Shown: piece by piece, positions 3,576 through 33,591 of the stretch | Position numbering within the stretch: the stretch's first letter is position 1 | Layout of the letters: every line of letters starts with the position of its first letter | Program-made: the position numbers and the translations under genes | Notes under the pieces: model-generated | The model's input: only the letters and a program-made list of their open reading frames with translations | The model's database searches: none | Told to the model about the DNA's origin: nothing | Source: a virus | Length of the DNA: 51,112 nucleotides | IMG/VR virus record: IMGVR_UViG_3300042010_000260 | Coordinates: 1 to 51,112 of that record | Direction: 5' to 3' (one strand)

Positions 3576-3582
3576 GGACGTT

Positions 3583-8106: not shown

Positions 8107-8159
8107 ATTTCTGGCTCCAGAGGAATAATACAATCTGGATTTTACCCGCTTATTACACA

Positions 8160-9203: not shown

Positions 9204-10984
9204 GCTGCTTTCCTTATATGCCAGCGGGATTTACGTTCGTTCTCATAGTCCAGTGGTTCGTTATCGATGGCGTGCGCGATAGCCCAGAAACTGTCTGCGT
9301 GCCCTGTTTCGGCGCTGCGATCAGCAACAAACGTCATTGCGTTGCCGCTGGCGGTGGATGTGCGCCTGATGGCCATAAAGCTGGCCGCTATTTCCATGTG
9401 ATCTTTGTCCCACTCAATACGGCTATCTTCCACCACATCAATCATCTTCATTACCAGGCGGTTTTTAGTCTCCACGCCATACCTGATCGCAGTTGCCTGA
9501 CGCAGCGCAAAACTTTGTATTTTTTCAAACACGCCTGAACCGATGCCGGTTATATCGACGCCGATAAAGGTAATGTTGTATTGCCGGAACAGCTTCTTAA
9601 TCTGCGCTGCCTGATGGCTCCAGTTCACGCCTTGCCAGTGGTCCACGCGGAGGATGCGGAATTTCTCACCCTGATAAAGCGGCGGGGCAACAATGACAAA
9701 CGTTGATGTATCGCCGCTGCGGGCCGGGTCATATCCGGCCCATACTTCACGGTTGCCAAATGGACGCGGCGCGGTTGGGTCGTGATCCTGCCATGCCTCC
9801 GGGTCAACGCAGCAACGTTCCACCTGCGTGAATGAAAAAACACTGTCTTTGCTGTCAACGAATACGCACATATAGAGCATGTTGAACGTATCCGCGTTAT
9901 AGCGGTTGCGCAGCTTGTCGATGCTGGCCAGATTAAATCCGCCTGCAATCGCATCTTCCAGGGTGATGATGTAGCGCCACTGTCCGTCCGGGCAAAGGCG
10001 TCCGCCGTCGCGCAGCTCCTTATCACTGGGGAATTCCACCCGCTGGCGTTTCTTGTTACCACGTTTCCATTCTTCGCCCGTCCAGAATGGGTATGCCTGA
10101 TGCGTTTTACTGCTGGGCGTCGAAAAATAAGTGGTGCGCCATTTGTCATGTGTGGCCATCGCACTGGCCACCTCATTCAGCTTCGCAAAGTTCGGAACCC
10201 AAAAATATTCATCGCAATACAAATGGCCACTGTATGACTGCGCGGTATTTTTGTTCGTGGACAGGAAGCGCAGCTCTGCGCCGTTCGACAAGCGGATCGG
10301 GTTGCCGGTCAGCGTCACATCAAAATACTGCTCTGCGATATTGACGATATAGCTGCGGAAAACCTCCGCCTGGGCTTTTGACGCCGACAGGAATATCTGC
10401 GGATCGCCGGTCATTACTGCATTTTCAAATGCCTCGATTGAAAAATACCAGGTCGCACCAATCTGGCGGCTTTTCAGGATGTTTCGTACCTGCTGACCGA
10501 TATTAGCCCGCAGGTGTTTCTGATAGCCGAACAGGTTTTCATCAGCGAAATTATCAAAATCCTCCTGGGTCAGTTCGCTGATGTCGTTCTTTTTATATTT
10601 CCCGCGCTTTTTCCTGCCGTCGCCGTCGCCGTCATCGTCATTATCACGTGATCCGCTGCTGCGTGGTTCCCGTGTTTGCTCAAGCTTCTCTTTATGCTTG
10701 TTCGTCTGAGCACGAAGTTTAACCAGATGACCGACAAGCTTATCCAGTTCCTGTAATTCAAGTTCAGATTTACCTTCACGCAGCGTCAGCGTCTGAATAC
10801 GCCGGTTTAATGCTTCCTCCGTTGATTCATGGCTGAGTAAGTCAGCCCAGCTGTATTTTTCCGCCCAGTAGTAAACGATCCGCCTGTTAGGAAGATTTAA
10901 TTCACTGGCGATTTCTTGCGGGGTGTAACGTCTTAAATAAAGCGCCCGCGCAACGCCTTTTATTTCTTCGCTGTATTTTGCCAT
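9200..10984 (-). CDS. P: Terminase large subunit gpP
   Basis: 594 aa packaging ATPase and nuclease. Residues 1-60 are a helix-turn-helix region; 110-140 is a charged, Asp/Gly/Lys-rich linker. The ATPase has an unusual Walker A (KSRQIGATW) and a Walker B (LYCDEYFW), both as in P2 gpP. The nuclease domain shows WAGYDPARSGD and FIGVDITGIGSG with metal-binding acidic residues. It cuts cos and packages DNA together with gpM. It is divergently transcribed from O across a 144-bp control region. Confidence 0.95.
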   Translation of the reverse strand: MAKYSEEIKGVARALYLRRYTPQEIASELNLPNRRIVYYWAEKYSWADLLSHESTEEALNRRIQTLTLREGKSELELQELDKLVGHLVKLRAQTNKHKEKLEQTREPRSSGSRDNDDDGDGDGRKKRGKYKKNDISELTQEDFDNFADENLFGYQKHLRANIGQQVRNILKSRQIGATWYFSIEAFENAVMTGDPQIFLSASKAQAEVFRSYIVNIAEQYFDVTLTGNPIRLSNGAELRFLSTNKNTAQSYSGHLYCDEYFWVPNFAKLNEVASAMATHDKWRTTYFSTPSSKTHQAYPFWTGEEWKRGNKKRQRVEFPSDKELRDGGRLCPDGQWRYIITLEDAIAGGFNLASIDKLRNRYNADTFNMLYMCVFVDSKDSVFSFTQVERCCVDPEAWQDHDPTAPRPFGNREVWAGYDPARSGDTSTFVIVAPPLYQGEKFRILRVDHWQGVNWSHQAAQIKKLFRQYNITFIGVDITGIGSGVFEKIQSFALRQATAIRYGVETKNRLVMKMIDVVEDSRIEWDKDHMEIAASFMAIRRTSTASGNAMTFVADRSAETGHADSFWAIAHAIDNEPLDYENERKSRWHIRKAA

Positions 10985-11128
10985 GTCTCTATTATGCCTG
11001 CGGATAAAGCGGCAATATCGAAATATATATCGGCAATGTTCGGTAATAGGCTATATCCGAAATCAATCGGATGCACAGGGTGAATAAATTGGCGATACTT
11101 CAAATGCAGCAGGAAAGGAGGCAATTGA
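10985..11128. promoter_or_regulatory. Divergent P/O late control region of prophage 1
   Basis: The gap lacks the TTGT-N12-ACAA dyad seen in prophage 2. It instead contains TTCGG-N13-CCGAA (11039-11061), an overlapping ATCCGA-AATCAA-TCGGAT (11055-11072) and two CGGCAAT repeats to the left. These are candidate sites for the divergent Ogr-like activator of this element. AAGGAGG at 11115-11121 is the ribosome site of O. Confidence 0.45.
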
Positions 11129-11980
11129 ATGTCAGATTCAAAGTTGTCAACAGGATGGATTTGTATTGCTGCAGCTGGGGAGTCTGTAGATGGTCGGGTT
11201 ATAGAAGAACAGTGGATTATTGATGCTGCTGAAACATATTCCACCGATTTATATACAGCTATGTTGTGGCCAGAACATCTTCGCGATTATGGAAACATGG
11301 GTGAGGTTCTGGAGTTAACGGCGGCACAGGATGATGAGGGTGTATTGTGTCTTTATGCCAGATTACGTCCGAATATCGCATTAATTCAGGCGAACGCTAA
11401 CGGGCAGCTTTTGTTTTGCTCGGCAGAATTTACACCAGATGGAAACTTTCGGGGTACAGGTAAAACATATCTGGAAGGGCTGGGGGTTACAGACAGTCCG
11501 GCCAGTGTAAAAACGGACAGACTGCATTTTAGCCGCAGGCGAAATAAACGAGGGGCGCGTTTCGGTTTATATAAGCCGTTGGCGCTGGATGGAATCACAA
11601 AAAATAGACAGGACAGTAAAATGGCAAAAGGGAAAAAAGGCTGGCGCAATTTCTTCGCTATTGAAGACACCACGCCGGAACCAGTTGAAGAACCGTCAAA
11701 AGACGATGCATTGCAGGCACTGGCGCAGGCTGTGGCCGCACTGGAAGACCGTGTGGCTGCGCTGGAAACCCGTGCTAAGGATACCGAAGAAACGGTTGAA
11801 GATGTTCAGGACGATGTGGACACCGTTAAAGAAATCGTGGACACGGAAAACTTTGCGCGTCTGGTCGGTAATCTGCCGGAACTGGTAAAGGGCTTTTCAA
11901 AGCTGAATGAAAAAATCACCAAACTGCCAGAGAAAAAGTTCTCTAAAAAGCAGCATGAAAAGGGCTTTAAGTTCCTTTAA
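11129..11980 (+). CDS. O: Capsid scaffold and protease gpO
   Basis: 283 aa scaffolding protein with self-cleaving serine protease activity. The Asp-His-Ser triad known from P2 gpO can be matched to SVDGR (Asp 21), WPEHL (His 49) and LFCSAEF (Ser near 99). The C-terminal half is acidic and helical (about residues 185-250, with repeated LEDRVAALETR heptads), the scaffold part, and it ends in a basic tail. It has an excellent Shine-Dalgarno (AAGGAGG). It precedes capsid gene N. Confidence 0.92.
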   Translation: MSDSKLSTGWICIAAAGESVDGRVIEEQWIIDAAETYSTDLYTAMLWPEHLRDYGNMGEVLELTAAQDDEGVLCLYARLRPNIALIQANANGQLLFCSAEFTPDGNFRGTGKTYLEGLGVTDSPASVKTDRLHFSRRRNKRGARFGLYKPLALDGITKNRQDSKMAKGKKGWRNFFAIEDTTPEPVEEPSKDDALQALAQAVAALEDRVAALETRAKDTEETVEDVQDDVDTVKEIVDTENFARLVGNLPELVKGFSKLNEKITKLPEKKFSKKQHEKGFKFL

Positions 11981-12019
11981 ATGCCAGTCTTTTACTAATT
12001 CTTTAAGGATAAAGAGCCG

Positions 12020-13048
12020 ATGTTAAATAATAAAGCTCGTCAGTTCATGGCTGATTATATGGCCGGGCTGGCTGAGTCCTACGAACAGGATGACGTAAGC
12101 CGTTATTTTGCTCTTAGTGACCCGAAAGAAACGCAGCTGCGTGCAGCACTGCTGGAACAGTCCGATTTTCTGAATTTAATTACCGTGGCTGATGTTGACC
12201 AGCTGCAGGGGCAGGTTATTCCGGTTGGCACGTCTGGTATTTATACCGGTCGTGCTGCAGAGGGACGTTTCCGCCGTAAAGTTGGCGTTTCCGGTAATGA
12301 ATATAAATTAGCGGAAACAGATTCCTGTGCGGTACTTGACTGGAAATTGCTTTCTGTGTGGGCGAATGCAGGCAATGAAAATGAGTTTTTCCAGCGCGTG
12401 CAGGAATTCACTAACCAGTCTTTCGCGCTGGATATGCTGCGTATCGGTTTTAACGGTACGTCTGTGGCTGACGACACTGACTACGATAAAAACCCGAACG
12501 GCGAAGACGTCAATATCGGCTGGCACCAGATTGTAAAAAACTGGAAAGACGGCCAGCAGATTATTACCGATACGGTAACGCTGGATGAGGACGGCGGCGA
12601 TTATAAGTCTCTTGATGCCATGGCATCCGATCTGATTAACAGCAAAATTCCGCAGCAGTTCCGCAATGACCCGCGTCTGGTTGTGCTGGTGGGTGCTGAT
12701 CTGGTGGCTGCAGAGCAGTTCCGTCTGTACCAGAAAGCGGATAAGCCCACTGAAAAAATCGCCGCGCAGCTGCTGTCTGACAGTATCGCCGGGCGTCAGG
12801 CGTGGGTTCCGCCGTTTATGCCGGGTAAACGCATGGTGGTTACCACGTTGCCGAACCTGCATATCTACACGCAGCGCAATACGCGCCAGCGCAAAGCGGA
12901 GTTTGTTGAAGACCGCAAGGCATACGAAAACAAGTATCTGCGCAACGAAGGTTACGCCGTTGAGTATCCGGAACTGTATGCCGCCTTCGATGAGACCGCT
13001 GTAACGATCGGTGCGCCGGTTCCTGATAACGGCGGCAATGAAGGTTAA
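12020..13048 (+). CDS. N: Major capsid protein gpN
   Basis: 342 aa HK97-fold capsid protein of the P2 family. Typical segments are the N-terminal arm MLNNKARQFMADYMAGLAESY, VADVDQLQGQVIPVGTSGIYTGRA, the central DMLRIGFNGTSVADDTDY and the C-terminal NKYLRNEGYAVEYPELYAAFDE. The gene is intact. In P2 the first 31 residues are removed by gpO; a similar processing site is expected but not identified here. Confidence 0.95.
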   Translation: MLNNKARQFMADYMAGLAESYEQDDVSRYFALSDPKETQLRAALLEQSDFLNLITVADVDQLQGQVIPVGTSGIYTGRAAEGRFRRKVGVSGNEYKLAETDSCAVLDWKLLSVWANAGNENEFFQRVQEFTNQSFALDMLRIGFNGTSVADDTDYDKNPNGEDVNIGWHQIVKNWKDGQQIITDTVTLDEDGGDYKSLDAMASDLINSKIPQQFRNDPRLVVLVGADLVAAEQFRLYQKADKPTEKIAAQLLSDSIAGRQAWVPPFMPGKRMVVTTLPNLHIYTQRNTRQRKAEFVEDRKAYENKYLRNEGYAVEYPELYAAFDETAVTIGAPVPDNGGNEG

Positions 13049-13061
13049 CGGGGAGTAAACC

Positions 13062-13751
13062 ATGTTGTCACCGGCCCAGCGCCATAACGCACGCCTCCGG
13101 GCAGAACGCCAGCTTAAAGCGCAGCGGGCGCTGTCACCTGATACCAGTCTGCATATTCTGTGCGCCGAACTGGAAAAGGATGTGCAGGCGGCAGCGGAAC
13201 AGGGAAGCCGCGCGGAGCGTCAGCGCTATAAAGCAGACGTGTTACTGCCTAAATGGATGCCAACGGCAGAAGCGTATCTGGCCGGTGAGCAGGTTTATAA
13301 AAATCCCGTGTTCGCTTGGTGCATTGTCTGGCTGTTCGACACTGAACAGTTTGACCAGGCGCTGGACTGGGCGGATCGGGCCATAACCGAGGGGCAGGAT
13401 ACCCCGGAAGCGTTCCGCAGCACGTTTCCCGCTTTTGTCGCGGATACCGTGCTGGCGTGGGCGGAAACAGAAGCTGCCGCAGGGCATTCGGTGGAGCCGT
13501 ATTTTTCACGCACGTTTGCGAACGTGCTGCAGGTCTGGCAGGTACATGAGGCGATCAAGGCTAAGTATCTTAAATTTGCCGGGCTGCAGCTTCTGCGGGA
13601 TGAAGACGGGGAACCGCGTGCGGCGGCGGTGGATGACAGGGAATCTGGTAACCAGAAGCGGCAGCACGTATCAGCTAACAGCCGGTGCAGGATATGTTGC
13701 CGGGCTGCGTACAGAGCTGCAGCAAAACACAGAGCTGGTTGTAACAACTAA
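13062..13751 (+). pseudogene. M: Terminase small subunit gpM, C-terminally truncated by deletion
   Basis: The first about 192 residues are a normal gpM (helical, MLSPAQRHNARLRAERQLKAQ to RDEDGEPRAAAVDD). From about 13630 the DNA is tail-fibre sequence read in another frame, adding about 37 unrelated residues (RESGNQKRQ to AGCNN) before a stop at 13751. The lost C-terminal part, compared with the usual 230-250 residues, is the region expected to contact gpP, so terminase activity is probably impaired. A 14 kb-scale deletion joined M to the fibre gene. Confidence 0.88.
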
Positions 13752-15183
13752 ACCCGTTTTTGTCCTGCTGGACGTCGCATGGACAGGAACGCTGACCAGC
13801 GCATGGGGTGTTGAAAGCAAAATCCATGTGAACGCAGGCATGGATAGTTATGAAAAAGATGGCGTCTGGCATTACGTTTTTGGCGTTGCCCGGATTGAGG
13901 AAGACGGCACGATAACGGATCTGCGTCCGAAAGGAACGCTGGATGGCCAGCTGGCGGAAAGCCGTTACTTGCAGCGAGAAAAAAACCTTTCCGATCTCAC
14001 AGATGCTGCGGCAGCAAGGAATGCGCTGGCGCTGAAAGGGGCGGCCCTGCTTGATGTGGGAAAATCTGCTGACACCGTGGCGGCGGGTGATGATTCGCGC
14101 ATCGTTAACGCCTTGCAGGTGGCTAAATCCCCTCTTGCGGTTGATTTGAACACGCTGGGCAGTTATGACGATGCCGGGGTGTATTTTCAGGGTACTGACG
14201 CCAATGCCAAAGCAGAGCTTAATTATCCGGTAGGTTTATCCGGCACGCTGACTTTAACCCCTGCGGCTTATGGCTGTGTTCAGGAATACACCACTTATCA
14301 TCTTACCCGCAAATTCGTGCGCGGCCTTATTGGGGAATGGACCGGGAGTGGGCCATGGGCACCGTGGACAGAAATCTACTCTGAAAACCATAAACCCACA
14401 CCTGCGGAAATTGGCGCAGTCCCGGCTGCGGGGGGCAGCGTAGGGTATCTTGATAATGCCGCGTATTACTACACCGCAGGAGACAGAAACCCTGCCGGGG
14501 CTGGCGGGTTCGGAGGGCAGTTATCTACATCAGCCCCTTTTTATGCGCCTAACTGGGAATGGGCACCCACTGACGGCGGGTTATACGTCCCGCTGGTCAA
14601 AGGTAAAAGTACCCGTAAAGGGCAGGGATGGCCGACAGCTGTAAGCTTCGGTTATTTAATGTCGGGCGGTACCGGGAATTTTGCGGCACCTGCAATTCAT
14701 GTTCAGGGTGACTCAGTGAACGCTGCGTGGTTCTTCGATCCCTACTCCAAGTCTATGAGTTCAGATGGTGGCTATACGGCTGGTTCAGCCAGATATGATA
14801 CTAACGGCGATGTGACCGGCGCTACATGGGGCGGCGGTCCGCTCAGCAGCTGGCTGGCAAGTTCGTTTGCTATCCGTGATCAAAATATTGCTGCAAGGGC
14901 CACCACAGAGGTAGTGAATCTCCATGTTGCTAATCTGAACCAGAATATTGGTACCAAAGCAGATACGGTATGGGTACAGCAGAACTTTATTAACGATATT
15001 GCCCTGGGTGCAGAAGGTTCTTTTCTCATTGCTAAAAATGCATGGCAGCGTGTTCCGGGCGGGTGTGTGCTGACGGGATACAACGCTGAAGGCAATGAAC
15101 CGGTTAATGACACGCTCTTTTATCGACCGATACAGAAATATTACCCTTCTGTGGGCTGGATGACGATTGGACATAATGCATGA
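13633..15183 (+). pseudogene. H: Tail fibre gpH-like, 5' end deleted
   Basis: In the +1 frame relative to M, sequence from about 13640 is a tail-fibre protein lacking its start: LVTRSGSTYQLTAGAGYVAGLR and WHYVFGVARIEEDGTITDLRP belong to the conserved N-terminal attachment region, followed by a collagen-free shaft and a variable tip to 15183. The particle-binding first 100 or so residues are missing. An ATG at 13633 at the junction could give a 516-aa product, but without a good ribosome site. The C-terminal part is open and could still act as an allele donor for fibre switching by recombination. Confidence 0.82.
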
Positions 15184-15704
15184 TGCTGACTTTGAAGAAA
15201 TTTAAACCGTATACGCCGGAATACGAAGATTTGATGCTTAAGGCTATCTACCTTGAAACGGCAGACGGGCTTGACTGGTATTTTCATATGTCACGCTTTC
15301 AGCCTGACACGCTGAAAGTGTGTTATGACGAAAATAATATTATTCGTTCATTCAGTTATCAGGCAGACCGGCTGTTTCCGCAGGGGCTGTCTGTTTCAGA
15401 AGTTGCAAAAAAAGACGTACCGGAAGGGCTTGATATTCTCGGTGGCTGGATTTTCGATAAAGGTAAAATTGTGCCGCTGCCGGTTGATCATGTTGCCCTG
15501 GCTGAAAAGAAACGTGACGCCGCAATGGATACGGTAACGGAACGTATTACTGCGCTGGTAGCGGCACAGGAAGATGGCGACATTACTGACAGTGAGGAAA
15601 AAGAGCTGGCTTCATTACGTGCCTACCGATCCGCGTTGCGCCGTCTTGATTTAAGTACCGCGCCAGATATTAACTGGCCGGAGATTGAAGATTATGTGGC
15701 GTAA
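15180..15704 (+). CDS. G: Tail fibre assembly chaperone gpG-like
   Basis: 174 aa, Caudo_TAP family. The C-terminal half (LAEKKRDAAMDTVTERITALVAAQEDGDITDSEEKELASLRAYRSALRRLD, here in segments) is the conserved chaperone helix region, ending INWPEIEDYVA. It overlaps the fibre stop (ATGA). It probably folds the tip of the fibre just upstream and is fibre-specific. It differs from the gpG of prophage 2. Confidence 0.85.
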   Translation: MMLTLKKFKPYTPEYEDLMLKAIYLETADGLDWYFHMSRFQPDTLKVCYDENNIIRSFSYQADRLFPQGLSVSEVAKKDVPEGLDILGGWIFDKGKIVPLPVDHVALAEKKRDAAMDTVTERITALVAAQEDGDITDSEEKELASLRAYRSALRRLDLSTAPDINWPEIEDYVA

Positions 15705-16416
15705 AGCGCGTCTGGCATTGACCGATTCACTGTCCGCACTGACCTGTTCTGTGGTGCCTGCGCATCCATGGATTTACGGGCTGGGGCAGGCTGCTGAAAC
15801 CGGCGTTTATCTTAGTCCACTGAATGCCATAAATTATCTGGCCGGAAAACTCTCTGGCCAGGCAGGATCCGCTGATGTGGTGGTATTCCTGGTCAGCGCA
15901 GATACCCAGCCGGAATTTATGAACAGTCTGGATGCGATGGCGTCCGTTTTTCCGGTTCCGGCGTTTACGCAGGTAAGGCGACAGGCGCAGGCGGCGGCAG
16001 AGCTGGCGATCACGCGAATGCAGATACCGGCAAAAGCGGAGAACGCGTTGCCTGCCGCGCAACCACTGTCCGTGCCAACTACCCGGCAGGCTGTTAATGC
16101 AGCCCGCATTGCAGCTGCAAAAGCGCAGGCAGGGGCCGGTGCCAGTCTTGCGGGCCTAACGGATGCGCTGAAAAACTTTAATAAGGCGCGTGATTCAGCG
16201 CTGGCCAGCATTAACGACGCGCTGGACGGGCTGAAAGGGAAAAGCGCGGATGCCTGGGTTTTCACCGGCACCGGCAGTCTTAACACCGTTGCGACGGAAC
16301 TGCAGCAGGGGATCCCGGCAGCCTCGTCTGTTTACTGCGTGGCGGTGATGTTCGTGGGCGAACTGGAAGCATTAAGGACGATGATTCATGACACAGATAA
16401 TTACACTGGCGCTTGA
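15694..16416 (+). CDS. Tail/baseplate protein, HP1-type right end
   Basis: 240 aa from the ATG at 15694 (MWRKARLALTDSL), which overlaps the gpG stop; GGAG lies 10 bases upstream. It is strongly Ala-rich, with helical repeats in the middle (AARIAAAKAQAGAGASLAGLTDALKNFNKARDSALASINDALDGLKG) and no transmembrane segment. By position, third from the end before the hub gene, it should be a tail-tip or baseplate component of HP1/K139-like phages. The exact role is not recognised. Confidence 0.65.
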   Translation: MWRKARLALTDSLSALTCSVVPAHPWIYGLGQAAETGVYLSPLNAINYLAGKLSGQAGSADVVVFLVSADTQPEFMNSLDAMASVFPVPAFTQVRRQAQAAAELAITRMQIPAKAENALPAAQPLSVPTTRQAVNAARIAAAKAQAGAGASLAGLTDALKNFNKARDSALASINDALDGLKGKSADAWVFTGTGSLNTVATELQQGIPAASSVYCVAVMFVGELEALRTMIHDTDNYTGA

Positions 16417-16957
16417 TGGTGAGGCGGTGCCGCTTAAAGATATGAAGGTCACTATGACCATGCAGTACCAGGAAAAAGACCAGAGCGGCCAGTCATCCAG
16501 CACAGCAAACGCCCAGCAGGGCATTAAGGCGAAAGAAATGCGGATTTCTGGCCTTATCCCGTTCAGTAAGCCGGAAATATTGCGCCGTTTGTTTGAGCTG
16601 GGATCCGCTACCAGCGATAACGGCGATCTCAGGGTTTACCGCGTGGCCAACATGACCGCTTCTGCTGTAAATTTTCGCCAGGCCACCTTTTCAGGGCAGA
16701 TTGACGCACCGCAGCAGGACGGGAAAATGGCGTGGCTTGTTACATTCACACTGCGTGAGCATGTTAGCGTGCCGGAGAAAAAACAGGCCCGGGCAGACAG
16801 TAAAATTACGGCAAAAGCGCAGGGGCAGAACGGCACAGCGACGGCAGCGGGGGCAGATGAGGAAAATCAGCGTCTGTCATGGTTTGAACGAAATGTTCTG
16901 AAACCGACTGACGCGGCACTGGGTAAAGTTGTCGGGGGTGGCGATGCGTCCAGTTAA
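16388..16957 (+). CDS. Baseplate/tail protein, unassigned
   Basis: 189 aa; starts 29 bases inside the preceding gene. The N-terminal half (ITLALDGEAVPLKDMKVTMTMQYQEKDQSGQSSS) is beta-rich and predicted to form a tail-tube-like or LysM-type baseplate fold; the C-terminal tail (about 135-189) is charged and low-complexity. It overlaps the start of the hub gene by 14 bases. The tight coupling argues for a shared structural complex. No specific family recognised. Confidence 0.65.
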   Translation: MTQIITLALDGEAVPLKDMKVTMTMQYQEKDQSGQSSSTANAQQGIKAKEMRISGLIPFSKPEILRRLFELGSATSDNGDLRVYRVANMTASAVNFRQATFSGQIDAPQQDGKMAWLVTFTLREHVSVPEKKQARADSKITAKAQGQNGTATAAGADEENQRLSWFERNVLKPTDAALGKVVGGGDASS

Positions 16958-18590
16958 GCGCCTTTATCTTTCGTCGGATGAAGTTCACATGGCCGATCTG
17001 CAACTGGTTCTGGAGTTAAGCGCCTGCGGCCGCGGGTTCATTACCGCGAAGACTGATAAAGATTACACCGGCAAGATGGTTCGCATCGACGCCGGATATT
17101 CGGATCAGCTTTATCGGTGGTTTACCGGTTACGTTGAGCGTTCGCAGCCGTCAGAAAATGGTTATCAGCGCCTTTTTGTACGCGAGCTTGTCGGCATTTT
17201 TGACAAGGCGTGGCCTTGCAGCTTTCAGCACCCGACGCTGCGTACTATTACTGACTGGCTGACAGAGAACAGCGGCCTGACATTTAGCCTGGCTAACGGC
17301 GCATCCTATACCGATAAGCCGATCCCCCATTTCACGCACAGCGGCACGGGTTACCAGCTGCTGGCCGCGTTAGGTCCGGCGTTCAGTATTGAGGACTATA
17401 TCTGGTATCAGTTACCCAACGGCGATGTGTTCGCAGGCAGCGCAACGCATGGCATGTTTGCCGGTAAAGCGGTGACCATCACTGACGAATTCAGCCAGGG
17501 CGCTGCTGCGGGTGATTCCATGAAAGTGGCGCTGGTTCCGTCTCTGCGTCCGGGTGTTGTCGTTAATGAAAAGCGGGTGAATAATATCCGTCTGCATAAC
17601 GATGAAATGACATTAACGTGGGCGGCGGCCAGCGGTGTGGCAACGGCAAAAAGTCCGATCGTCAGGCAGATTGAAAACGCGTATCCGGAGCTGGCAAGCG
17701 GTCAGCACCTGCCGAAATTTGCGCGTGTGGAAGCGCCAGCAGAAGCCGTGACCAGCGGCAACATTGCCGATCCGTTCCGTCCACGCTATGCGGTAGATTT
17801 GCAGCTGCTCGATGCCGATGGCAAGCCCGCAGCGGGTACGCCGGTTTATCCCGCTGTACCGTTGCCGGTGCCGATGGCTGGTAATGATTCCGGCATGTTC
17901 CAGTTCCCGCCGCCCGGCACGCTGGTAGAGGTGGCGTTTACTGATGGTCGCCCTGATAAACCCTTCATTCGTCAGACACTGGCGCAGGGCAACAGCCTGC
18001 CGGACATTAAGCCTGGTGAGCAGCTGCAGCAGCAGCGCGACGGCGTGTCGCAGCGCGTAACGGTGGTTGGAGACTGGGAACGTCAGACGGATCAGACCAT
18101 CCGTGAAACGTCGATGAGCCGGGTTATCACTGCTGACGATGAAACCCGTGCGCTGGTTGCCAGAGAAACTACGGTGCAGGCTACGGATAAAACGACGGTA
18201 CTGGGAACGGCCAGCCTTATGGCCGGTGCAATTCAGCAGGTAGCCAGCGGGGATTATGCGCTGGCCAGCGGCGGCAATCTGGTTACCAGTGTTGCGAAGG
18301 ACGCGAGTCTGCAGGCGGGCGGTAGCCTCACTGAAAAAATTGCGCAGCTGCGGCAGAGTATCGCCGGGGTGCGTCAGGAAATTATTGCGCCAGTGGTATG
18401 GGTCGGCAGTGCCTCCGTCAACGTAATGCAACTGATGCTGGACACGCTTGATGTGGTGCAGCAGCTGGCAGAGCAGACGGCCAGCCATACGCACAGCGGA
18501 ACGGGTGCGCCGCAGAACGCCAGCGCTATCAGCGCAACCGGAACCAGTGCTGCGCAATTACAGACAAAATATAAACCAGTCATTGGTTAG
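16944..18590 (+). CDS. Baseplate hub-spike protein (gpD/gpV-like fusion)
   Basis: 548 aa from the ATG at 16944. Residues about 15-180 resemble the gpD/gp27-like hub (LFVRELVGIFDKAW, LTENSGLTFSLANG). Residues about 280-350 contain an OB-fold with GMFQFPPPGTLVEVAF and GRPDKPFIRQ, typical of gpV/gp5/VgrG spikes. A repetitive stretch follows (GTASLMAGAIQQVASGDYALASGGNLVTS), then HTHSGTG, the HxH metal motif of spike tips. P2 makes hub and spike from separate genes V and D; here they appear as one VgrG-like polypeptide. It is the last structural gene of prophage 1. Confidence 0.75.
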   Translation: MRPVKRLYLSSDEVHMADLQLVLELSACGRGFITAKTDKDYTGKMVRIDAGYSDQLYRWFTGYVERSQPSENGYQRLFVRELVGIFDKAWPCSFQHPTLRTITDWLTENSGLTFSLANGASYTDKPIPHFTHSGTGYQLLAALGPAFSIEDYIWYQLPNGDVFAGSATHGMFAGKAVTITDEFSQGAAAGDSMKVALVPSLRPGVVVNEKRVNNIRLHNDEMTLTWAAASGVATAKSPIVRQIENAYPELASGQHLPKFARVEAPAEAVTSGNIADPFRPRYAVDLQLLDADGKPAAGTPVYPAVPLPVPMAGNDSGMFQFPPPGTLVEVAFTDGRPDKPFIRQTLAQGNSLPDIKPGEQLQQQRDGVSQRVTVVGDWERQTDQTIRETSMSRVITADDETRALVARETTVQATDKTTVLGTASLMAGAIQQVASGDYALASGGNLVTSVAKDASLQAGGSLTEKIAQLRQSIAGVRQEIIAPVVWVGSASVNVMQLMLDTLDVVQQLAEQTASHTHSGTGAPQNASAISATGTSAAQLQTKYKPVIG

Positions 18591-18617
18591 CCATTCCAGA
18601 TCACATCAGCCTTCAAG

Positions 18618-18638
18618 CCCGCTTTCGCGGGTTTTTTT
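18618..18638 (+). terminator. Late-operon terminator of prophage 1
   Basis: CCCGC-TTTC-GCGGG hairpin followed by seven T, 27 bases after the hub-spike stop. A second hairpin, AGCGCC (18658-18663) with GGCGCT (18673-18678) and TTTT, follows. Confidence 0.85.
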
Positions 18639-19322
18639 ATGCCCTTAAAACAGCGTCAGCGCCTCCACACGGGGCGCTTTTGATTATGTGCGTTCGGCAT
18701 CCCCTGAAATGGATCTCACCGCTAAAGCCTCGCCAGCGCAGCGACAGCGCCACGAAATCACGGAGGAAGTGACGAAAACGGCACTACACCGCACCCGCCT
18801 GCGGTTTTTGGATCATAAAATTTTTTCAATTTTATTTTTCTACAAACCAGACCGCCAGACCGTGCCAGTTCTGGCGGCTTTGCGTAAAACCAGAACTGAA
18901 AAGATTGCAAAGAATTTCAGTGTTTTTCACTTTCATGGATCTGTGGAGGACCTGTTTTGTGAATTAAGGGATTGATAAATAAGGTAAATATAAGATTTAC
19001 GTTAGTTTTAAGGATCTTTTTTTGTACAATGAAGAAGATATTTTTTCTGCATAGACCAGCGCTAGTGCAGGATGCGGAGAGAAGTAATGATTATTTGGAC
19101 TGAAAAATACTGATTCAATTAGGCCTAACTTTTAGCTTGCAGTCCACGTAAGCGGTGGGGCAAAAAAATGCATAGACGTTGCATGTTCATCTTCTTAAAA
19201 CTCGGATTTATTCGTCACATCACTCCTACTTCACAATCTTAAGAAATCGGTGTAATAACCAATGTGATTGTGGAGTTACTATACATATTCCGTAGCTATG
19301 TGATTCTTATAGAGGACTCATC
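18639..19322. other. Gene-free right-end region of prophage 1
   Basis: About 680 bp without a convincing gene. It opens with a second terminator-like hairpin at 18658-18681, then GC-rich sequence containing AAAGCCTCGCC (18724-18734), whose reverse strand GGCGAGGC equals the first eight bases of the P2 cos end. From about 18800 the composition turns AT-rich. HP1-type phages have cos beside attP, so the packaging site could be here, but the match is short. The 95-codon ORF at 18688 has no ribosome site and looks non-coding. Confidence 0.4.
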
Positions 19323-24081: not shown

Positions 24082-24938
24082 GCACTATCCTGAAATGGGC
24101 GGGAAATAAAACCGCCATTATGCCGGAACTGATTAAGCACCTGCCTGCTGGCCCGCGACTGGTTGAACCTTTCGCGGGTTCTTGTGCTGTCATGATGGCA
24201 ACAGACTATCCTCATTATCTTGTCGCAGATATTAACCCCGATCTGATTAATCTATATAGCGTCATCAAAAGCGGATCAGATTTATTTACCACAATTGCAA
24301 AAGAATTATTTTCAAAAAACAATACCGCAGAAAATTACTACGGTATTCGTAAAGAATTTAATCATGATCGTCAGTGGCCTGCTGAATGGCGTGCTGCGAT
24401 GTTTCTTTATCTCAACAGGCATTGTTATCGTGGCCTGTGCCGCTATAACCAGAGCGGTCACTTCAACTCGCCCTACGGGAATTATAAATCGCCGTACTTC
24501 CCTGAAAATGAAATACAGACTTTTGCTGAGAAATCACAACGAGCAACGTTTATCTGCGCCAGCTATGACGAGACACTGGCGCTGCTGCAGAAGGGTGATG
24601 TTGTTTATTGTGATCCGCCGTATGACGGTACATTTAGCGGCTATCACACCGCCGGGTTTACAGATGACGACCAGTATCATCTGGCGTCTATTCTTGAGCA
24701 CCGGTCATCAGAAGGCCATCCGGTTATCGTGTCCAACAGCGACACATCCCTGACCCGTTCGCTTTATCGTAACTTCACCCGCCATCGTATCACTGCAAAG
24801 CGCAGCATGGGTGTGGCTGCAGGTGATGGTAAGTCTGCAACTGAAATCATCGCCACAAAAGCAGCGTGCCGGTTTGGTGTTGATGTGGCGTCTGGTCCTG
24901 ATGTCTCAGTAGAAACTGAGGTTTGGGCGTGGCAGTGA
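24078..24938 (+). CDS. dam: DNA adenine methyltransferase (Dam-type)
   Basis: 286 aa D12-class adenine methylase. LKWAGNK (5-11), EPFAGSC (30-36) and catalytic DPPY (179-182) are present. The start ATG at 24078 overlaps the TraR-like stop; a longer in-frame reading is only overlap. Strong similarity to the prophage 1 Dam over most of the length (YLNRHxxxGLCRYN, SPYGxYKxPYFPE) makes this a possible site of recombination between the prophages. Likely target GATC. Confidence 0.95.
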
Positions 24939-27337
24939 GTAAACTCACATCACATCATGCACCAACCACCGGCGGCTCGAATGAGACCGCCGTGGCCTTT
25001 CCATGGAATACCCCAAAAAAAGCGGTTAACCCGTATCTGGACCCGGCGGAAGTTGCGCCGGAGTCCGCGCTTTCAAACCTGATCACTCTTTACGCTGCGG
25101 ATAACGAGTATGAACAGCTGCGCCGCGAAGCGCTGAGTGATGAGGTCTGGGAACGCTATTTCTTCAATGAGTCACGCGATCCTGTCCAGCGCGAACTGGA
25201 ACAGGACCGGCTGATTAGCTGCGCCAAAATGGCCCGCGAGCAACAGCGCTTTAATCCCGATCTGGTTATTCTGGCTGACGTTAACGCCATGCCGTCCCAC
25301 ATCAGCAAGCCTTTGTTGGAGAGGATTAAATATTTCCATAGCCTGGGCCGTCCTAAAGCCTATTCCCGTTTCCTGCGTGAAACCATCAGGCCGTGCCTTG
25401 AGCGGCTGGAGCGCGTGCGTGACAGCCAGTTGTCTGCTTCTTTCCGGTTTATGGCGAGCCATGACGGGCTGGAGGGACTGCTGGTCCTGCCGGAAATGAA
25501 CCAGGATCAGGTTAAGCGTCTGTCCACACTGGTTGCGGCACACATGAGCATGTGTCTTGATGCTATCTGCGGTGATCTGTTTGTCAGCGACGATGTGAAG
25601 CCCGAAGAAATCCGTAAAGCGTGGGAAAAGGTTGCTGCCGAAGCCATGCGGCTTGATGTGATCCCGCCTGCATTTGAGCAGCTGCGCCGCAAGCGGAATC
25701 GTCGTAAGCCGGTTCCCTACGAACTGATCCCGCCGTCACTGGCGCGTATGTTGTGCGCGGACTGGTGGTATCGCAAATTGTGGCAGATGCGCTGCGAGTG
25801 GCGGGAGGAACAGCTGCGTGCTGTCTGCCTGGTCAACAAGAAAGCGTCCCCGTATGTCAGCTGTGAAGCCGTGATCCACAAACGCGAGCAGCGCCGTAAG
25901 TCGCTGGAGTTCTTCCGCTCGCATGAGCTGGTCAATGAAGATGGCGATACGCTGGACATGGAAGATGTGGTGAATGCCAGCAACAGTAACCCGGCACACC
26001 GCCGTAATGAAATGATGGCCTGTGTTAAAGGGCTGGAGCTGATCGCGGAAATGCGCGGGGACTGCGCGGTGTTTTATACCATCACCTGCCCGTCACGCTT
26101 CCACGCAACCCTTAACAACGGCAGACCTAATCCGAAGTGGACCAGTGCCACCGTCCGGCAGAGCAGTGATTATCTGGTTGATACGTTTGCCGCTTTCCGC
26201 AAGGCAATGCACAAGGCCGGGCTGCGCTGGTATGGCGTCCGCGTTGCAGAACCTCACCATGACGGCACCGTGCACTGGCATCTGCTGTGCTTTATGCGCA
26301 AAAAAGACCGCCGATCCATCACCGCACTGCTGCGCAAGTTTGCCATCCGTGAGGACCGCGAGGAGTTGGGCAACAATACCGGGCCGCGCTTTAAGTCCGA
26401 GCTTATCAACCCGCGCAAAGGCACGCCGACGAGCTACATCGCCAAATACATCAGCAAGAACATCGACGGGCGTGGACTGGCTAAAGAAATCAGCAAAGAA
26501 ACCGGCAGATCATTGCGCGACAGCGCCGAGCATGTCAGCGCCTGGGCTTCGCTGCATCGTGTCCAGCAGTTTCGTTTCTTTGGTATTCCGGGGCGTCAGG
26601 CTTACCGTGAGCTGCGTTTGCTGGCTGGTCAGGCGGCGAGAGTGCAGGGCGAGCGTAAAGCAGGTGCGCCGGTACTGGATAACCCTCGTCTGGATGCGGT
26701 TCTGGCTGCTGCTGATGCGGGCTGCTTTGCCACCTATATCATGAAGCAGGGTGGTGTGCTGGTTCCCCGCAAACATCACCTTGTCCGCACGGCTTATGAG
26801 CTTAACGACGAGCCGAGCGCCTACGGCGATCACGGTATCCGTATCTATGGCATCTGGTCCCCGATTGCAGAGGGCAGGATTTGCACGCACGCGGTGAAGT
26901 GGAAAATGGTTCGTAAAGCTGTTGACGTTCAGGAGGCGACAGCCGACCAGGGCGCTTGCGCCCCTTGGACTCGTGGCAATAACTGTCCCCCTGTTGAAAA
27001 TCTGAACAAATCAGGGGGTGATTTACCCGATATTAAAACCATGGATGAGAAGGAGCTGCAGGAATATCTCCACAACATGGGCCAGAAGGAACGCCGGGAG
27101 CTGACCGCCAGGCTGAGGCTGGTAAAACCGAAGCGGAAAAAAGCATACAAGCAGAATATTTCCGATCAGCAGCGCCTGCAGCTTGAGGCAGAACTGGCTT
27201 CCAGAGGGTTTGATGGCAGCGAATCAGAAATAGACCTGCTTCTGCGTGGCGGCAGTATTCCATCAGGGGCCGGGCTGCGTATTTTCTACCGCAACCAGCG
27301 ACTGCAGGAAGATGACAAATGGCGTCAGTGGTACTGA
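24929..27337 (+). CDS. A: Replication initiator endonuclease gpA
   Basis: 802 aa from the GTG at 24929, supported by GAGG seven bases upstream and the MAVSK start (P2 gpA also starts MAV). HUH motif at 443-451 (HHDGTVHWH); catalytic tyrosines Y503 and Y507 in YIAKYISKN. It nicks the origin and starts one-sided rolling-circle replication with host Rep helicase, as known for P2. It overlaps the dam stop by ten bases. The C-terminal 200 residues are less conserved than in prophage 1. Confidence 0.95.
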
Positions 27338-28375: not shown

Positions 28376-29170
28376 ATGGGTCCGCTGATCATTATGGTTG
28401 TTTTGGTATGCGGGTTTTGGTACACGCAGAATCACTACCAATCCCGCATAAAGTTAGCCCGAAGCGATGGCTGGAATGCTTACTTTTACGTGGCTATGCA
28501 TGGATGTAAGTTCGCTATTCAGGGCTTCGCTGTTGTCTCCATAATTTTTGTTTTACTCCTTGTTCTGAGTGCCATAATCAATATTCTGGGTATGATATGG
28601 CCCAGCCTTCACGCTGATTTGTATTCATGGCTTACCGATATCAAAGTCATGTCATACCCGCTTTTTTTCGTTCTTTCCCTGATGACCGCTGTATGTCTGG
28701 CTGTTGAGCAGGGAAATAGTGCGAAGCGGGCGCTGGAGGATAATGATGCCAGGCAGAAAGCTTACAGAGAGATGGCAACACAGGATGGTATCGAGGCATT
28801 GCTGGTCCAGGCTATTGATGAAGGGAAGCTTGTTTTTGTTACCCTTAAATCTCGCAAAGTTTATATCGGTTATGTTGCCGCTCCTCGCATGGAGCATCAT
28901 GACACACAGCACCTGTCTATCATCCCTTATATTAGTGGCTACCGTGATAAAGACACGCTGCGCTACCATGAGCAACATAGATACTATGAGCTTTATCTGA
29001 GTCAAAATATTACAGCTGACTCAGAACCTCTTAACTTCGGTCATTTCCGGCATGTCATGCCGATGGAGCAGGTTGAAGCTGTGTCGCTTTTCGATACCGA
29101 AACCTACAAGACTTTTGAAGATTTCTCGACACCTGAACCAGTGAAGACAGAAAACTCCGGCAGTGCATGA
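28376..29170 (+). CDS. Three-TM membrane protein in the A-cos slot
   Basis: 264 aa. Transmembrane segments at about 3-17, 47-72 and 92-110, then a soluble domain of about 150 residues with a beta-strand pattern (KLVFVTLKSRKVYIGYVAAP) reminiscent of an SH3-like barrel, and an acidic tail. I do not recognise the family. The upstream gene is seven bases away. It lies immediately before two terminators and the cos candidate, the cargo position used by many P2-like phages for anti-phage genes. Inner-membrane superinfection exclusion is a possible role. Confidence 0.78.
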   Translation: MGPLIIMVVLVCGFWYTQNHYQSRIKLARSDGWNAYFYVAMHGCKFAIQGFAVVSIIFVLLLVLSAIINILGMIWPSLHADLYSWLTDIKVMSYPLFFVLSLMTAVCLAVEQGNSAKRALEDNDARQKAYREMATQDGIEALLVQAIDEGKLVFVTLKSRKVYIGYVAAPRMEHHDTQHLSIIPYISGYRDKDTLRYHEQHRYYELYLSQNITADSEPLNFGHFRHVMPMEQVEAVSLFDTETYKTFEDFSTPEPVKTENSGSA

Positions 29171-29287: not shown

Positions 29288-29306
29288 GGCGTGGCGGGGA
29301 TACGAG
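29288..29306. other. cos site candidate (186-like)
   Basis: GGCGTGGCGGGGATACGAG. The first 13 bases (GGCGTGGCGGGGA) are those I recall for the cohesive end of phage 186 (P2 has A instead of T at position 5). It lies between A and Q as required by the P2 map. The expected product is a 19-base 5' overhang. The last six bases differ from P2 and 186. Confidence 0.75.
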
Positions 29307-29391
29307 CGCGCGCTCCTCCTTCAGATAGTTGTTCAAAGTGTGATAATCTGAGTCAATCTGGCTTTTACACATAGCAATGAAAGGCGACGTT

Positions 29392-30756
29392 ATGAATGAA
29401 AAGTTGAATGAACTAAAACAAAAATTAGATAATTTACATACTGCTGTCAGTTCAATTACTTTCCCACAACCAGATTTAATTGATGCGGGAAATTATCATT
29501 ATCCTTTCTTACATGCGGAGGACTTAGTTTATTTTCCAAAAATGCTATCTGAAAAGATAGGAAAGATGACTAAGTTTGAACCCTCTGAGCATGATATTGA
29601 AATTATAGATTCTATTATCTATTCGCTTGACAAATCGCAGCCGAACCTTAATCATTTGAGCCATGGTAATTCTACTGTCTCGGGGCCTGCAATTGCATCA
29701 TATCTGGTTTCGATGCTATATATAAGCATCGAAATAAATGAGCTATTTTCATTTGAGGTTTTGAATAATAAAGAGCTTTTGCCAAAGAAAATAATTAATA
29801 GACTAGGTTTGTATCAATCTAATCTTCAAGCTATTGAGGAGAAAACAGGCAATATTGAAAGTAAAATTGATACTATCAATGAAGCTTATGATGCCGCTGA
29901 AAGTCTTCCCACAACCCTGAAGTCTCTGAGGGATACGAATGAAAAGATTAATGAATTAAACGAAAATTCAGAGAGAAATGCTAATTCAATCGGCGATAGA
30001 TTAGAACAGGCAAAGATTGATAGCAAAGAATTAACTGAGATTAAAAATAATGTTGCGCAGTTGCACAAAGATGTAGCAAAAGAAGCCAGTGATTATTTGA
30101 ACCAACTTAAGGTCGAAGCTCAAGGATATATTGATAAATGTGAGGAAGCTTTTAGAACCACTACGTCTAAAGGTTTAGCGGGAGCTTTTGAAGACAAAGC
30201 GATTAAACTTAACGCAAGTATTAGGCTTTGGGTAGCAGGATTAATCGCCGCGCTCGGAGCGGGGGCAATTGTTGGTTATACGCGGTTGCATGCTCTAGAA
30301 GCATACTTGTCGAGCCCTAATTCTTCTGGTATCAAACTTACCATACAGCTGATCTTGTCAATTCTTAGTGTGGGGGCTCCTCTTTGGTTCGCTTGGTTAG
30401 CCACTAAGCAAATTGGTCAACGATTTAGACTAGCTGAAGATTATGAATTCAAAGCCAGTGTTTCTAAAGCTTACGAAGGTTATCGGAGAGAGGCGATGCA
30501 GTTGGATGCAGATTTTTCGCAGCGCCTGTTTGGCAATGCTCTTACTCGACTTGAAGAGCCACCTTTGAGGTTTGTAGAGGAAACAGCTCACTCATCTCCA
30601 ATCATGGAAATGCTATCATCAGATGGTTTCAAAAATTTGGTAGATAGAGGTGGTGATAAAATTGACTCTATACTAGAAAAGGCTGGGCTAGTAAGAAAAC
30701 AGAAAATTAATAAAGATATTCCTGAAAGAAAAGTTATAAGTAATGAAGATGAATAG
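29392..30756 (+). CDS. Coiled-coil membrane protein between cos and Q
   Basis: 454 aa from the ATG at 29392 (AAGG seven bases upstream; an ATG at 29377 lacks a good site). Residues 1-135 are a helical N-terminal domain; 140-255 a long coiled coil rich in Glu, Lys and Asn; 279-296 and 314-337 two transmembrane helices; 340-370 an Arg-rich helix (QIGQRFRLAEDYEFKASVSKAYEGYRREA); then a charged tail. Much more AT-rich than the neighbouring late genes, a sign of recent acquisition. I recall similar C-terminal membrane regions in uncharacterised bacterial proteins but no function. Position next to Q, at the left end of the packaged chromosome, is a cargo site. Candidate abortive-infection or exclusion protein. 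Confidence 0.8.
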   Translation: MNEKLNELKQKLDNLHTAVSSITFPQPDLIDAGNYHYPFLHAEDLVYFPKMLSEKIGKMTKFEPSEHDIEIIDSIIYSLDKSQPNLNHLSHGNSTVSGPAIASYLVSMLYISIEINELFSFEVLNNKELLPKKIINRLGLYQSNLQAIEEKTGNIESKIDTINEAYDAAESLPTTLKSLRDTNEKINELNENSERNANSIGDRLEQAKIDSKELTEIKNNVAQLHKDVAKEASDYLNQLKVEAQGYIDKCEEAFRTTTSKGLAGAFEDKAIKLNASIRLWVAGLIAALGAGAIVGYTRLHALEAYLSSPNSSGIKLTIQLILSILSVGAPLWFAWLATKQIGQRFRLAEDYEFKASVSKAYEGYRREAMQLDADFSQRLFGNALTRLEEPPLRFVEETAHSSPIMEMLSSDGFKNLVDRGGDKIDSILEKAGLVRKQKINKDIPERKVISNEDE

Positions 30757-30775
30757 AGTTTCGGAGTAGTTAAAA

Positions 30776-30797
30776 GGCCGCGTTCCGCGGCCTTTTT
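30776..30797. terminator. Bidirectional terminator between cargo gene and Q
   Basis: GGCCGCG-TTC-CGCGGCC, perfect 7-bp stem with AAAA before and TTTTT after, so it works in both directions for the convergent cargo gene and P-Q operon. It overlaps the last bases before the Q stop. Confidence 0.9.
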
Positions 30798-30799
30798 CA

Positions 30800-31825
30800 T
30801 TATAAATTGTATTCGTTGAACGTAATTATTTCTTCTCCGATCCAAGTGTTTAGTTCTTTTAATCTTTTCTGCAGTGGGTAAAGCTCATTTCTCACAAATA
30901 CTTTGCTGGCCTTTTCAACATCCCCAAAACCGCCGACATTATTTGGCATGATTCCCATCATTTGCGGCGGCACGCGGTGCGCCGCCATCATGTCATCCCG
31001 GCTAACGTTCTTGATGTTCAGAAACTCATCCTTTGCCGCTACCTCTGACAGGGGGATGATCTGAATCCCGTCCTTTTTGCCGTTGGGCGAGTACATAAAC
31101 AGGTTGCGGAAGTTGCCCGGTCCCTTGGCGCTTTTCATGGCCTGGCGGATATTGTCCACATCCTGCTGATTCTGTGCCGCATCGGTCATGTACATGATGA
31201 AGCCCGCATGGCTGCCGTTGATGTAATACTTCCGGCGGAACAGCGTGGCGGATTCGTTGAGCAGCGCTGACGGAATGGCTGACAGGTAGCCAGGCAGCCC
31301 GTAAATCTCCTGGTTAATATCAGGCTCAAGAAGATGAAAGATGTTCCCCGGTGTAAATTCGTAGGGCTGCGTGGTGAATCCATATTGCACAAACCAGTAG
31401 GTGTCCAGGTCAACGCCGCGTCGGGTGTACTTCGCCAGTGCTGGCTCCAGCGAGAGAACGCCGCCGAGCCGGTTGGTGCGCTTTTCCAGGTAGGCATTGC
31501 CGAATACCAGATAGTCTTGGACGAAACGGGCAAAAGCCTGCTGGCTGAGCAGGCGGTGCGGGATGTAGGTACTGCTGAGAATGTCACGCTTCACAGCAAT
31601 TGGTGAGCTGTGGTGCACGGCGGCGCGATAGGTGCGCGCCAGCCCGTCAAAGCTCACCGGCGGCTCATACCAGCGGTCCATCTGCACGCATTCCACATAG
31701 TCCAGCAGTTCGCGGCGGTCCAGTACCGGGATCGGGTCGCCAAAACTGAATGCTTCTGCGGATATGCCGCTGCTGTGTTGAACGCTCTGTTTAGCTGCAG
31801 CGCGGTTTTTATTTCTCTTGCCCAT
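30800..31825 (-). CDS. Q: Portal protein gpQ
   Basis: 341 aa portal, P2 gpQ family. Recognisable: VECVQMDRWYEPPVSFDGLARTYRA, DVDTYWFVQYGFTTQPYEF-like region, EIYGLPGYLSAIPSALLNESATLFRRKYYINGSHAGFIMYMTD, AHRVPPQMMGIMPNNVGGFGDVEKA. The ATG at 31825 overlaps the P stop (ATGA) with GGAG upstream; the TTG one codon earlier is rejected. Forms the portal ring for DNA entry and tail joining. Confidence 0.96.
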   Translation of the reverse strand: MGKRNKNRAAAKQSVQHSSGISAEAFSFGDPIPVLDRRELLDYVECVQMDRWYEPPVSFDGLARTYRAAVHHSSPIAVKRDILSSTYIPHRLLSQQAFARFVQDYLVFGNAYLEKRTNRLGGVLSLEPALAKYTRRGVDLDTYWFVQYGFTTQPYEFTPGNIFHLLEPDINQEIYGLPGYLSAIPSALLNESATLFRRKYYINGSHAGFIMYMTDAAQNQQDVDNIRQAMKSAKGPGNFRNLFMYSPNGKKDGIQIIPLSEVAAKDEFLNIKNVSRDDMMAAHRVPPQMMGIMPNNVGGFGDVEKASKVFVRNELYPLQKRLKELNTWIGEEIITFNEYNL

Positions 31826-33591
31826 CAAAAAATCTCCACAATATTGTTGATATTAGCGGCTTCGCCTTGCAGCGGTTCGTTAAACAGTGCGTGCATCGTT
31901 GCCCAGGCCAGGTCTGCATGGCTGGCTTCTTCGCTGCGGCTGGCTTCGTAGGTGGGGCGGTTTCCGCTGGCGGTGGTGGCCCGGCGGATCGCCATAAAGG
32001 ACTGCGCAATGTCGGTATGCCCGGCGTCAAACTCCAGGCGGCGGTGGCTGATAATGTCGTAGGCCTTGAGCACCAGGGCGTTTTTGACGTTGGGGTTGTA
32101 GACAAACTCCCGCACCGCCGGGAAGAACGCCTTCACGTTCTCATAGACGCCATGACCGACGCCGGTCGAGTCGATACCGATGTAGGTCACGTTGTACTGC
32201 TGCGTCAGTTTTTTGATGGCGTCAGCCTGGGCGCGGAAGTCCATCCCGCGCCACTGGTGACGCTCCAGAATGCGGAACTTGCCGCCCGGCACTGTCGGTG
32301 GTGCCATGACCACGCAGCCTGCGCTGTCGCCGTTCTGCGTACCTTTCGCCGGGTCATAGCCGATCCAGACTTCACGCCAGCCAAACGGGCGCAGCGCCAG
32401 CGCCTGAAAATCGGACCACACTTCCCAGCTGTCCACCATGCACGCCTGCAACTCACTGAGCGGGAACACTGACGCCAGATCGTCAATAAATTCACACATC
32501 AGCAGGTTCTGGTATTCGTCGGGGCTGTACTCCATGCGCAGCTGATCGAGGTCGAACAGGTTGCAGCCGCCGCGCACCGCATCTTCCACGGTGACGATCT
32601 GGCGATACTGACCGTCCGGGCAGAGCAGGCCGGGGGCAAGGCTGGTATGGGTCAGGTCAATATCCACCTTGTCCGCTTTGGCGCGGCCCCGGTTGAACAG
32701 TGCGCCGGACCAGAACGGATAGGCGCTGTGGGTCAGGCTGGACGGCGTGGAGAAGTAGGTTTGTCGCCATTTCTTGTGAATGGCCATGCCGGACGCCACC
32801 TTGCGCAGCTCCTGGAATTTCGGTATCCAGAAATATTCATCAAGGTACAGGTTGCCGTGGTAGCTCTGCGCCGTGCGGGCATTGGTGCCGAGAAAGTACA
32901 GGCACGCGCCGTTGCTGAGCGTCATCGGGTCGCCTTTCAGCTCCACATCCACTTCTTTTGCAAAGTCGATGATGTACTGCTTGAAGACGTGCGCCTGCGC
33001 CTTACTGGCTGAGAGAAAAATCTGGTTGCGCCCGGTGGTGATGGCGTCAATCAGCGCTTCGCGCGCAAAAAAGAAGGTCGCCCCGATCTGGCGTGATTTA
33101 AGCAGGTTGCGGATACGGTGGCGTTTGCCTGCTTCGAACCAGTGACGCTGATAGTCGAACATGGAGCTGTGGAAAACGTCCTGCAGCTTCTCGATCTGTT
33201 CGTCGGTGAAAACGTTTTTTTCCGGCTGCCTGCGCGGGCCTTTGTTACGGTTGGCAACTTTCGGATTTAAGTCAGCTTCGTTCCCGCCATCGTTAAATTT
33301 ACTGATCCGGGCGTGGCGCTCTGACTGGCGCGCCAGCAGGTCAATTTCCTTGAAGTCTTTCCCTTCTTTCTGCTCCTTCATGATGAGCTGGCAGTAACGC
33401 GCGGCGGTGGTGAGCTGCATCTGATCCAGCGGCCCGTACTCGCTCCACTTGTCGCGCTTTTTCCAGCTGTGAACGGTTGCAACTTTCTCGCCCAGCATTT
33501 CAGCAATGCGGGCTACGCGGTATCCCTGAAAGTACAGCAGCATGGCCTGCCGACGGGGATCGAGGTCTGCGGGGGTCAGTGTCGTGTTCAT
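31825..33591 (-). CDS. P: Terminase large subunit gpP
   Basis: 588 aa. N-terminal HTH (YRVARIAEMLGEKVATVHSWKKR), ATPase with atypical Walker A LKSRQIGATFFF and Walker B LYLDEYFW, coupling motif FSTPSS, nuclease acidic residues in WIGYDPAKG and YIGIDSTGVGHG. Drives DNA translocation and cos cleavage with gpM. Divergent from O across a region holding an Ogr box; the box centre is 55 bp from this ATG. Confidence 0.96.
   Translation of the reverse strand: MNTTLTPADLDPRRQAMLLYFQGYRVARIAEMLGEKVATVHSWKKRDKWSEYGPLDQMQLTTAARYCQLIMKEQKEGKDFKEIDLLARQSERHARISKFNDGGNEADLNPKVANRNKGPRRQPEKNVFTDEQIEKLQDVFHSSMFDYQRHWFEAGKRHRIRNLLKSRQIGATFFFAREALIDAITTGRNQIFLSASKAQAHVFKQYIIDFAKEVDVELKGDPMTLSNGACLYFLGTNARTAQSYHGNLYLDEYFWIPKFQELRKVASGMAIHKKWRQTYFSTPSSLTHSAYPFWSGALFNRGRAKADKVDIDLTHTSLAPGLLCPDGQYRQIVTVEDAVRGGCNLFDLDQLRMEYSPDEYQNLLMCEFIDDLASVFPLSELQACMVDSWEVWSDFQALALRPFGWREVWIGYDPAKGTQNGDSAGCVVMAPPTVPGGKFRILERHQWRGMDFRAQADAIKKLTQQYNVTYIGIDSTGVGHGVYENVKAFFPAVREFVYNPNVKNALVLKAYDIISHRRLEFDAGHTDIAQSFMAIRRATTASGNRPTYEASRSEEASHADLAWATMHALFNEPLQGEAANINNIVEIF

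Follow-up and report, generated by a model that had tools for sequence, protein, structure and literature searches.

The window, that is, the whole stretch of 51,112 bases analyzed here, is a contig that carries two P2-like prophage regions in tandem (1-19000 and 19954-51112), each with A-like, Q-like and P-like genes. In the first region about 615 bp separate A (ending at 7545) from Q (8160-9203), and a cos box like that of the second region was not found there. Between A and Q of the second region lie, in order:

24923-27337, plus strand: replication gene A, the left border of the hotspot discussed below (PF05840, 6e-131)
28376-29170, plus strand: cargo gene on the A side of cos, encoding a 264-aa membrane protein with a hydrophobic N-terminal half (phrog_3630, unknown function)
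29288-29313, plus strand: cos box GGCGTGGCGGGGATACGAGCGCGCGC, the counterpart of the annotated P2 cosL GGCGAGGCGGGG
29314-30800, no strand assigned: variable Q-side cassette of 1.49 kb, GC 37.6%, with an abrupt start where the cos box ends, extending to the 3' end of Q
29320-29347, plus strand: promoter-like site TTCAGA-16-GATAAT with TG before the -10 hexamer, a consensus match only, of a kind expected by chance here
29392-30756, plus strand: intact ORF of 454 aa, between the cos box and portal gene Q
about 30772-30796, plus strand: 11-bp hairpin with flanking A and T runs, a probable bidirectional terminator (RNA fold -17.6 kcal/mol, z -3.68)
30800-31828, minus strand: portal gene Q, which bounds the cassette on the right and converges with the ORF (PF04860, 1.2e-16; phrog_68, 7e-173)

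The 454-aa ORF reported in the initial annotation is present, and its start at 29392 was preferred over an alternative in-frame ATG at 29377 (459 aa) because homologues begin at the same methionine, in the motif MNEKLxxL, and AAAGG lies 7 nt upstream. Its composition is unlike that of the flanking late genes, as had been claimed, with a GC of 37.1% and a GC3 of 29.7% versus 53.5% and 66.8% for Q. The distinct filled Q-side cassettes of P2-like relatives have a median GC of 0.357 compared with 0.542 for Q, and odd composition is therefore usual for this site. Relative to the nearest homologue (L002, 85% amino acid identity), dN/dS was 0.08 in the N-terminal domain, 0.10 in the coiled coil and 0.01 in the transmembrane and C-terminal part; the ORF is under purifying selection and is therefore a functional gene. 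The gene had also been credited with its own terminator; the hairpin at its 3' end, which a simple terminator scan did not include among its listed sites, is probably shared with Q, since it sits between two convergent genes.

The borders of the cassette are sharp. Within the cos box the majority base at each of the 26 positions occurs in at least 80% (at nearly all positions at least 90%) of 67 distinct P2-like loci, and from cos +26 conservation in the same loci falls to about 50% and then 40%, so that the cassette spans the interval from the end of cos to the Q stop codon. Q-side cassettes elsewhere (L021-L100) likewise have one exact starting base after the cos box, and the last Q codons vary with the cassette between loci. 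In P2 itself cosL occupies 1-19 and Q 187-1221, with 167 nt and no gene between them, in agreement with the earlier statement that P2 has no gene here; the P2 genes old and tin are found across cos, between A and cosR, and family scans gave no match of the window gene to either.

The cos-adjacent gpA-gpQ region of P2-like phages is a known defence hotspot (#1), described by Rousset et al. (PMC9122126) and Vassallo et al. (PMC9519451), and the former speculate that cohesive ends promote exchange at this region. The ORF stands at the hotspot's position, between A and Q and adjoining the cos box, and the site 29314-30800 is the Q-side half of hotspot #1. It resembles the P2 locus in holding AT-rich cargo that varies between relatives and differs from it in that old and tin occupy the A side of cos, whereas the window gene occupies the Q side. 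The initial annotation had inferred that the Q side of cos is a cargo point distinct from others; anatomically this is borne out by the variable sequence that begins 26 nt after the start of cos and by the frequency of cargo in relatives, but the point is not new, because it belongs to the published hotspot, in which both sides of cos are used.

A catalogue of the genes between cos and Q in other P2-like phages, the check proposed with the earlier claim, covered 76 related contigs with A, cos and Q, and in 54 of them Q-side cargo (at least one ORF of at least 100 aa) was present, a proportion that describes close relatives and not all P2-like phages, as the contigs were chosen by similarity to the window's portal. 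The 79 Q-side cargo ORFs form 48 sequence clusters, with 74 pointing toward Q and 5 away from it; A-side cargo of at least 130 aa was present in 29 of the 76 contigs. Q-side sites without cargo, about 205 bp long, were seen as well, and the absence of a gene in P2 reflects P2 and not its group. Some of the cargo is recognizable as defence by its PADLOC profile matches, including RT-Toprim (7e-214), PD-T7-1 (1e-196), PDC-S06 (3e-262), bSEFIR (1e-102), HEC-06 (3e-73), a type II methyltransferase (2e-140) and PtuA/AriA-like ATPases. When ten large Q-side cargo proteins were run singly against PADLOC, half reached 1e-40 or better and the other five had no such match; the site therefore holds modelled defence genes and is not limited to them. 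These comparisons also bear on whether the ORF might be a late or structural phage gene, for example for a tail or injection protein, misplaced beside Q. Weak matches to tape-measure and tail profiles would fit such a role, but they are driven by the coiled coil, and the ORF is AT-rich, lies on the strand opposite to Q and is absent from P2 and most relatives, which have unrelated genes in its place; we strongly disfavor this explanation and judge it highly improbable.

The protein is predicted to consist of a four-helix bundle (aa 1-125), a coiled coil (about 140-275), two transmembrane helices (TM1, about 277-302; TM2, about 316-338) separated by a short loop, conserved C-terminal helices (339-400) and a variable tail. 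In an AF2 model of the whole protein (mean pLDDT 76), residues 156-306 form one long helix and residues 313-368 a further one, preceded by helices within 3-117; the N-terminal domain modelled alone is a four-helix bundle (pLDDT 91, pTM 0.85). Both the long coiled coil and the two transmembrane helices of the initial annotation were recovered, the former as the modelled helix 156-306 with heptad-like periodicity at 156-262 above that of 2000 of 2000 shuffles, the latter as hydropathy peaks at 277-295 and 316-338. Its “Arg-rich helix” was overstated, since residues 338-372 comprise 4 R, 3 K and 6 acidic residues, but this is the most conserved segment of the family.

Conservation is distributed very unevenly along the protein. 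Across 39 sequences, the mean pairwise column identity was 0.21 in the N-terminal domain and 0.17 in the coiled coil, rising to 0.48 in the segment preceding TM1, 0.46 in TM1, 0.59 in TM2 and 0.66 in the helix following TM2, and falling to 0.22 in the tail; invariant residues include F266, W332, W335, F345, E349-D350-Y351, K354, G363, P391, R393 and P403. From the alignment, this pattern would be expected for a variable recognition part on a fixed effector, and a fixed membrane scaffold would match it equally.

The predicted topology is relevant to superinfection exclusion, in which the protein would sit in the inner membrane of the lysogen and block entry of related phages' DNA without killing the cell. 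Such a role would suit a membrane-anchored prophage protein whose single gene seems to be transcribed independently, from a unit that includes a promoter-like site. The predicted layout, however, has no periplasmic domain: the large coiled coil and the conserved C-terminal helix are both cytosolic, and the loop expected in the periplasm, between the transmembrane helices, is only ~13 aa long and variable. Homologues are also spread over unrelated phage types and plasmids, and we regard this explanation as unlikely.

Comparison with known systems gave no ready identity. Searches of Pfam, NCBIfam and PADLOC returned no family match beyond coiled-coil noise, to which the database matches over the coiled-coil region amount; we accordingly rejected the Pfam and NCBIfam matches as an identity. 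A sequence search of solved structures gave coiled-coil matches only, and a fold search with the whole model retrieved long-helix proteins, axonemal ones among them, none of them at an E below 0.07. The Pfam scan showed no recognized catalytic domain, and no Walker A motif (GxxxxGK[ST]) was found in the 454 residues. The long coiled coil matches the PADLOC models of ZorA, LmuB and JetC weakly (5e-6 to 1e-3), but the matches center on the coiled coil, and the window protein is without the MotA/TolQ domain, ATPase motif and partner genes of these systems: for ZorA, no MotA/ExbB/TolQ domain was seen by Pfam at E up to 1, and the gene stands alone with no ZorB partner; for Lamassu LmuB and for JetC, SMC-like P-loop ATPases, the matches are mainly confined to the coiled coil, and the Walker A motif is missing. 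A membrane-anchored coiled-coil defence protein with DUF4041 and a C-terminal DNA-cleavage domain has been described (PMC9519451); neither domain appeared in the Pfam scan of the window protein at E up to 1.

The N-terminal bundle was compared with known folds separately. Z scores were 10.6 against the plant Rx-CC domain (rmsd 2.6, 105 aligned) and 9.2 against MLKL (rmsd 2.8, 109 aligned), with similar values for IncA (10.7) and Cbl (about 9), and Foldseek gave no E below 0.3 for this domain. Resemblance to any of these four bundles is weak and within the helical-bundle background; because unrelated bundles score equally, the MLKL and plant CC likeness is a lead only.

Profile searches placed the protein in a family with phrog_34659 (4.3e-85) and phrog_30912 (1.5e-13), both unannotated clusters that give no function, and our literature search found no paper describing it. 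For the search for homologues and their neighbours proposed in the initial annotation, a profile search of viral contigs yielded 63 family loci; overall, relatives were found at P2 sites, in other prophages and on plasmids. Members at the same site include those of E. coli NCTC 13148 (L002), a plasmid-borne P2 prophage of Klebsiella (L015) and Pantoea (L005), among others, and in one locus (L114) a motif-based cos candidate puts the family gene on the A side. Another member (L104) lies at the position of P2 hotspot #2 (the Z/fun locus), between tail-fibre assembly and sheath genes, a place different from that of the window's own gene, and is the sister of a Q-side member (L105) with support of 100/99. 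Beyond P2-like phages, members were found in a lambda-like Providencia phage, in a Vibrio prophage after a zot-domain gene (a filamentous prophage context), in a Mu-like element and on Agrobacterium, Xanthomonas and Vibrio plasmids. In one contig (L101, 1-10572), possibly a satellite-like island, a member is flanked by an AbiEi relative and a primase-helicase, and pieces of an integrase occur there too. In two Vibrio plasmids (L019, 7023-8947; L020, 7041-8965) a distant member overlaps a small site-specific integrase gene by one base.

By sequence, the family protein has diverged more rapidly than the neighbouring portal, with identities of 37% versus 86% in L105 and 65% versus 87% in L006. 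It is also uncommon: a near match was found in 1 of 5426 E. coli genomes, and 4 clear matches in 398 sampled genomes of the Pectobacterium phylum, the remaining matches there looking like coiled coil. No constant neighbour or partner gene was found across the family loci. As a possible fixed partner we considered the 264-aa A-side gene. It has 86% copies in the loci of only two other family members (L009 and L010) and relatives of about 31% in L105 and in five other P2-like loci; being absent beside most family members and present in loci without them, it is not a fixed partner. A consistent defence island around the family outside P2 was rejected as well, since scans of the surroundings turned up defence genes (AbiEi, candidate PDC models) only here and there among mostly ordinary phage genes. 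The window gene forms a cargo cassette of its own in a P2-like prophage, self-contained and exchanged horizontally.

Membrane-anchored coiled coils can tether DNA or protein complexes, and the gene might accordingly serve the prophage or its host outside defence, through lysogenic conversion, stress, DNA anchoring, or maintenance of mobile elements at the membrane. The plasmid relatives, and the overlapping integrase gene in the two Vibrio plasmids, would suit such an accessory role; the lack of a constant partner gene and the recurrence of relatives at two P2 defence loci speak against it, and we give it a low probability.

We consider it somewhat better than even (a probability of roughly 0.55) that the gene encodes a single-protein phage-exclusion or abortive-infection device expressed by the prophage. 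An acquired gene of this kind had been proposed from the sequence, and location, mobility, the lack of a constant partner and architecture make it the best reading here also, one that we infer. In its favor are the position in the published gpA-gpQ hotspot and the recognizable defence proteins among Q-side cassettes, the occurrence of the family at P2 hotspot #2, in other prophage types and on plasmids with no constant neighbour, the faster divergence of the family protein relative to the portal, and the contrast between low identity in the N-terminal domain and coiled coil and high identity in and after TM2, as for a variable sensor and a conserved effector. Against it, matches to known defence families come only through the coiled coil, no catalytic domain or Walker A motif was found, hotspot genes are not all defence genes, neighbours elsewhere are mostly ordinary phage genes, and homologues are uncommon in the genomes sampled.

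Under the defence reading, both termini would be cytosolic, as the predicted topology has them, and the variable helical bundle and coiled coil would detect infection, oligomerize, or both. The effector would be formed by the conserved TTSKGLAGAF segment, the two-TM hairpin and the RFRLAEDYxFK...EGYRRE helix, and once triggered it may perturb the inner membrane and halt the infected cell. RexB is a membrane effector of an abortive system in which a soluble part controls transmembrane helices. Csx23 (PMC11014256) and Cap1 (PMC12642688) are membrane effectors of abortive systems with the same arrangement. The likeness to all three lies in the proposed logic only; no sequence relationship was found, and the window has a single protein with no nucleotide-signal partner seen. 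In a bolder and, in our view, doubtful version, the family would consist of single-protein immune receptors in the membrane, carried from host to host by phages, plasmids and satellite-like islands. A helical bundle of cell-death type (MLKL/CC-NLR-like) and the coiled coil would together be a rapidly changing sensor that controls a membrane effector of two nearly invariant helices.

The cargo point is already known, and the protein family is a candidate defence family. The sharp border of the cassette at the cos box agrees with the speculation on cohesive ends and cargo exchange (PMC9122126) and supplies exact coordinates for it. The family adds a one-gene defence candidate outside the models of PADLOC-DB 2.0.0, with members at both known P2 defence loci, and its pattern of putative variable sensor and conserved effector points to specific residues and domains.
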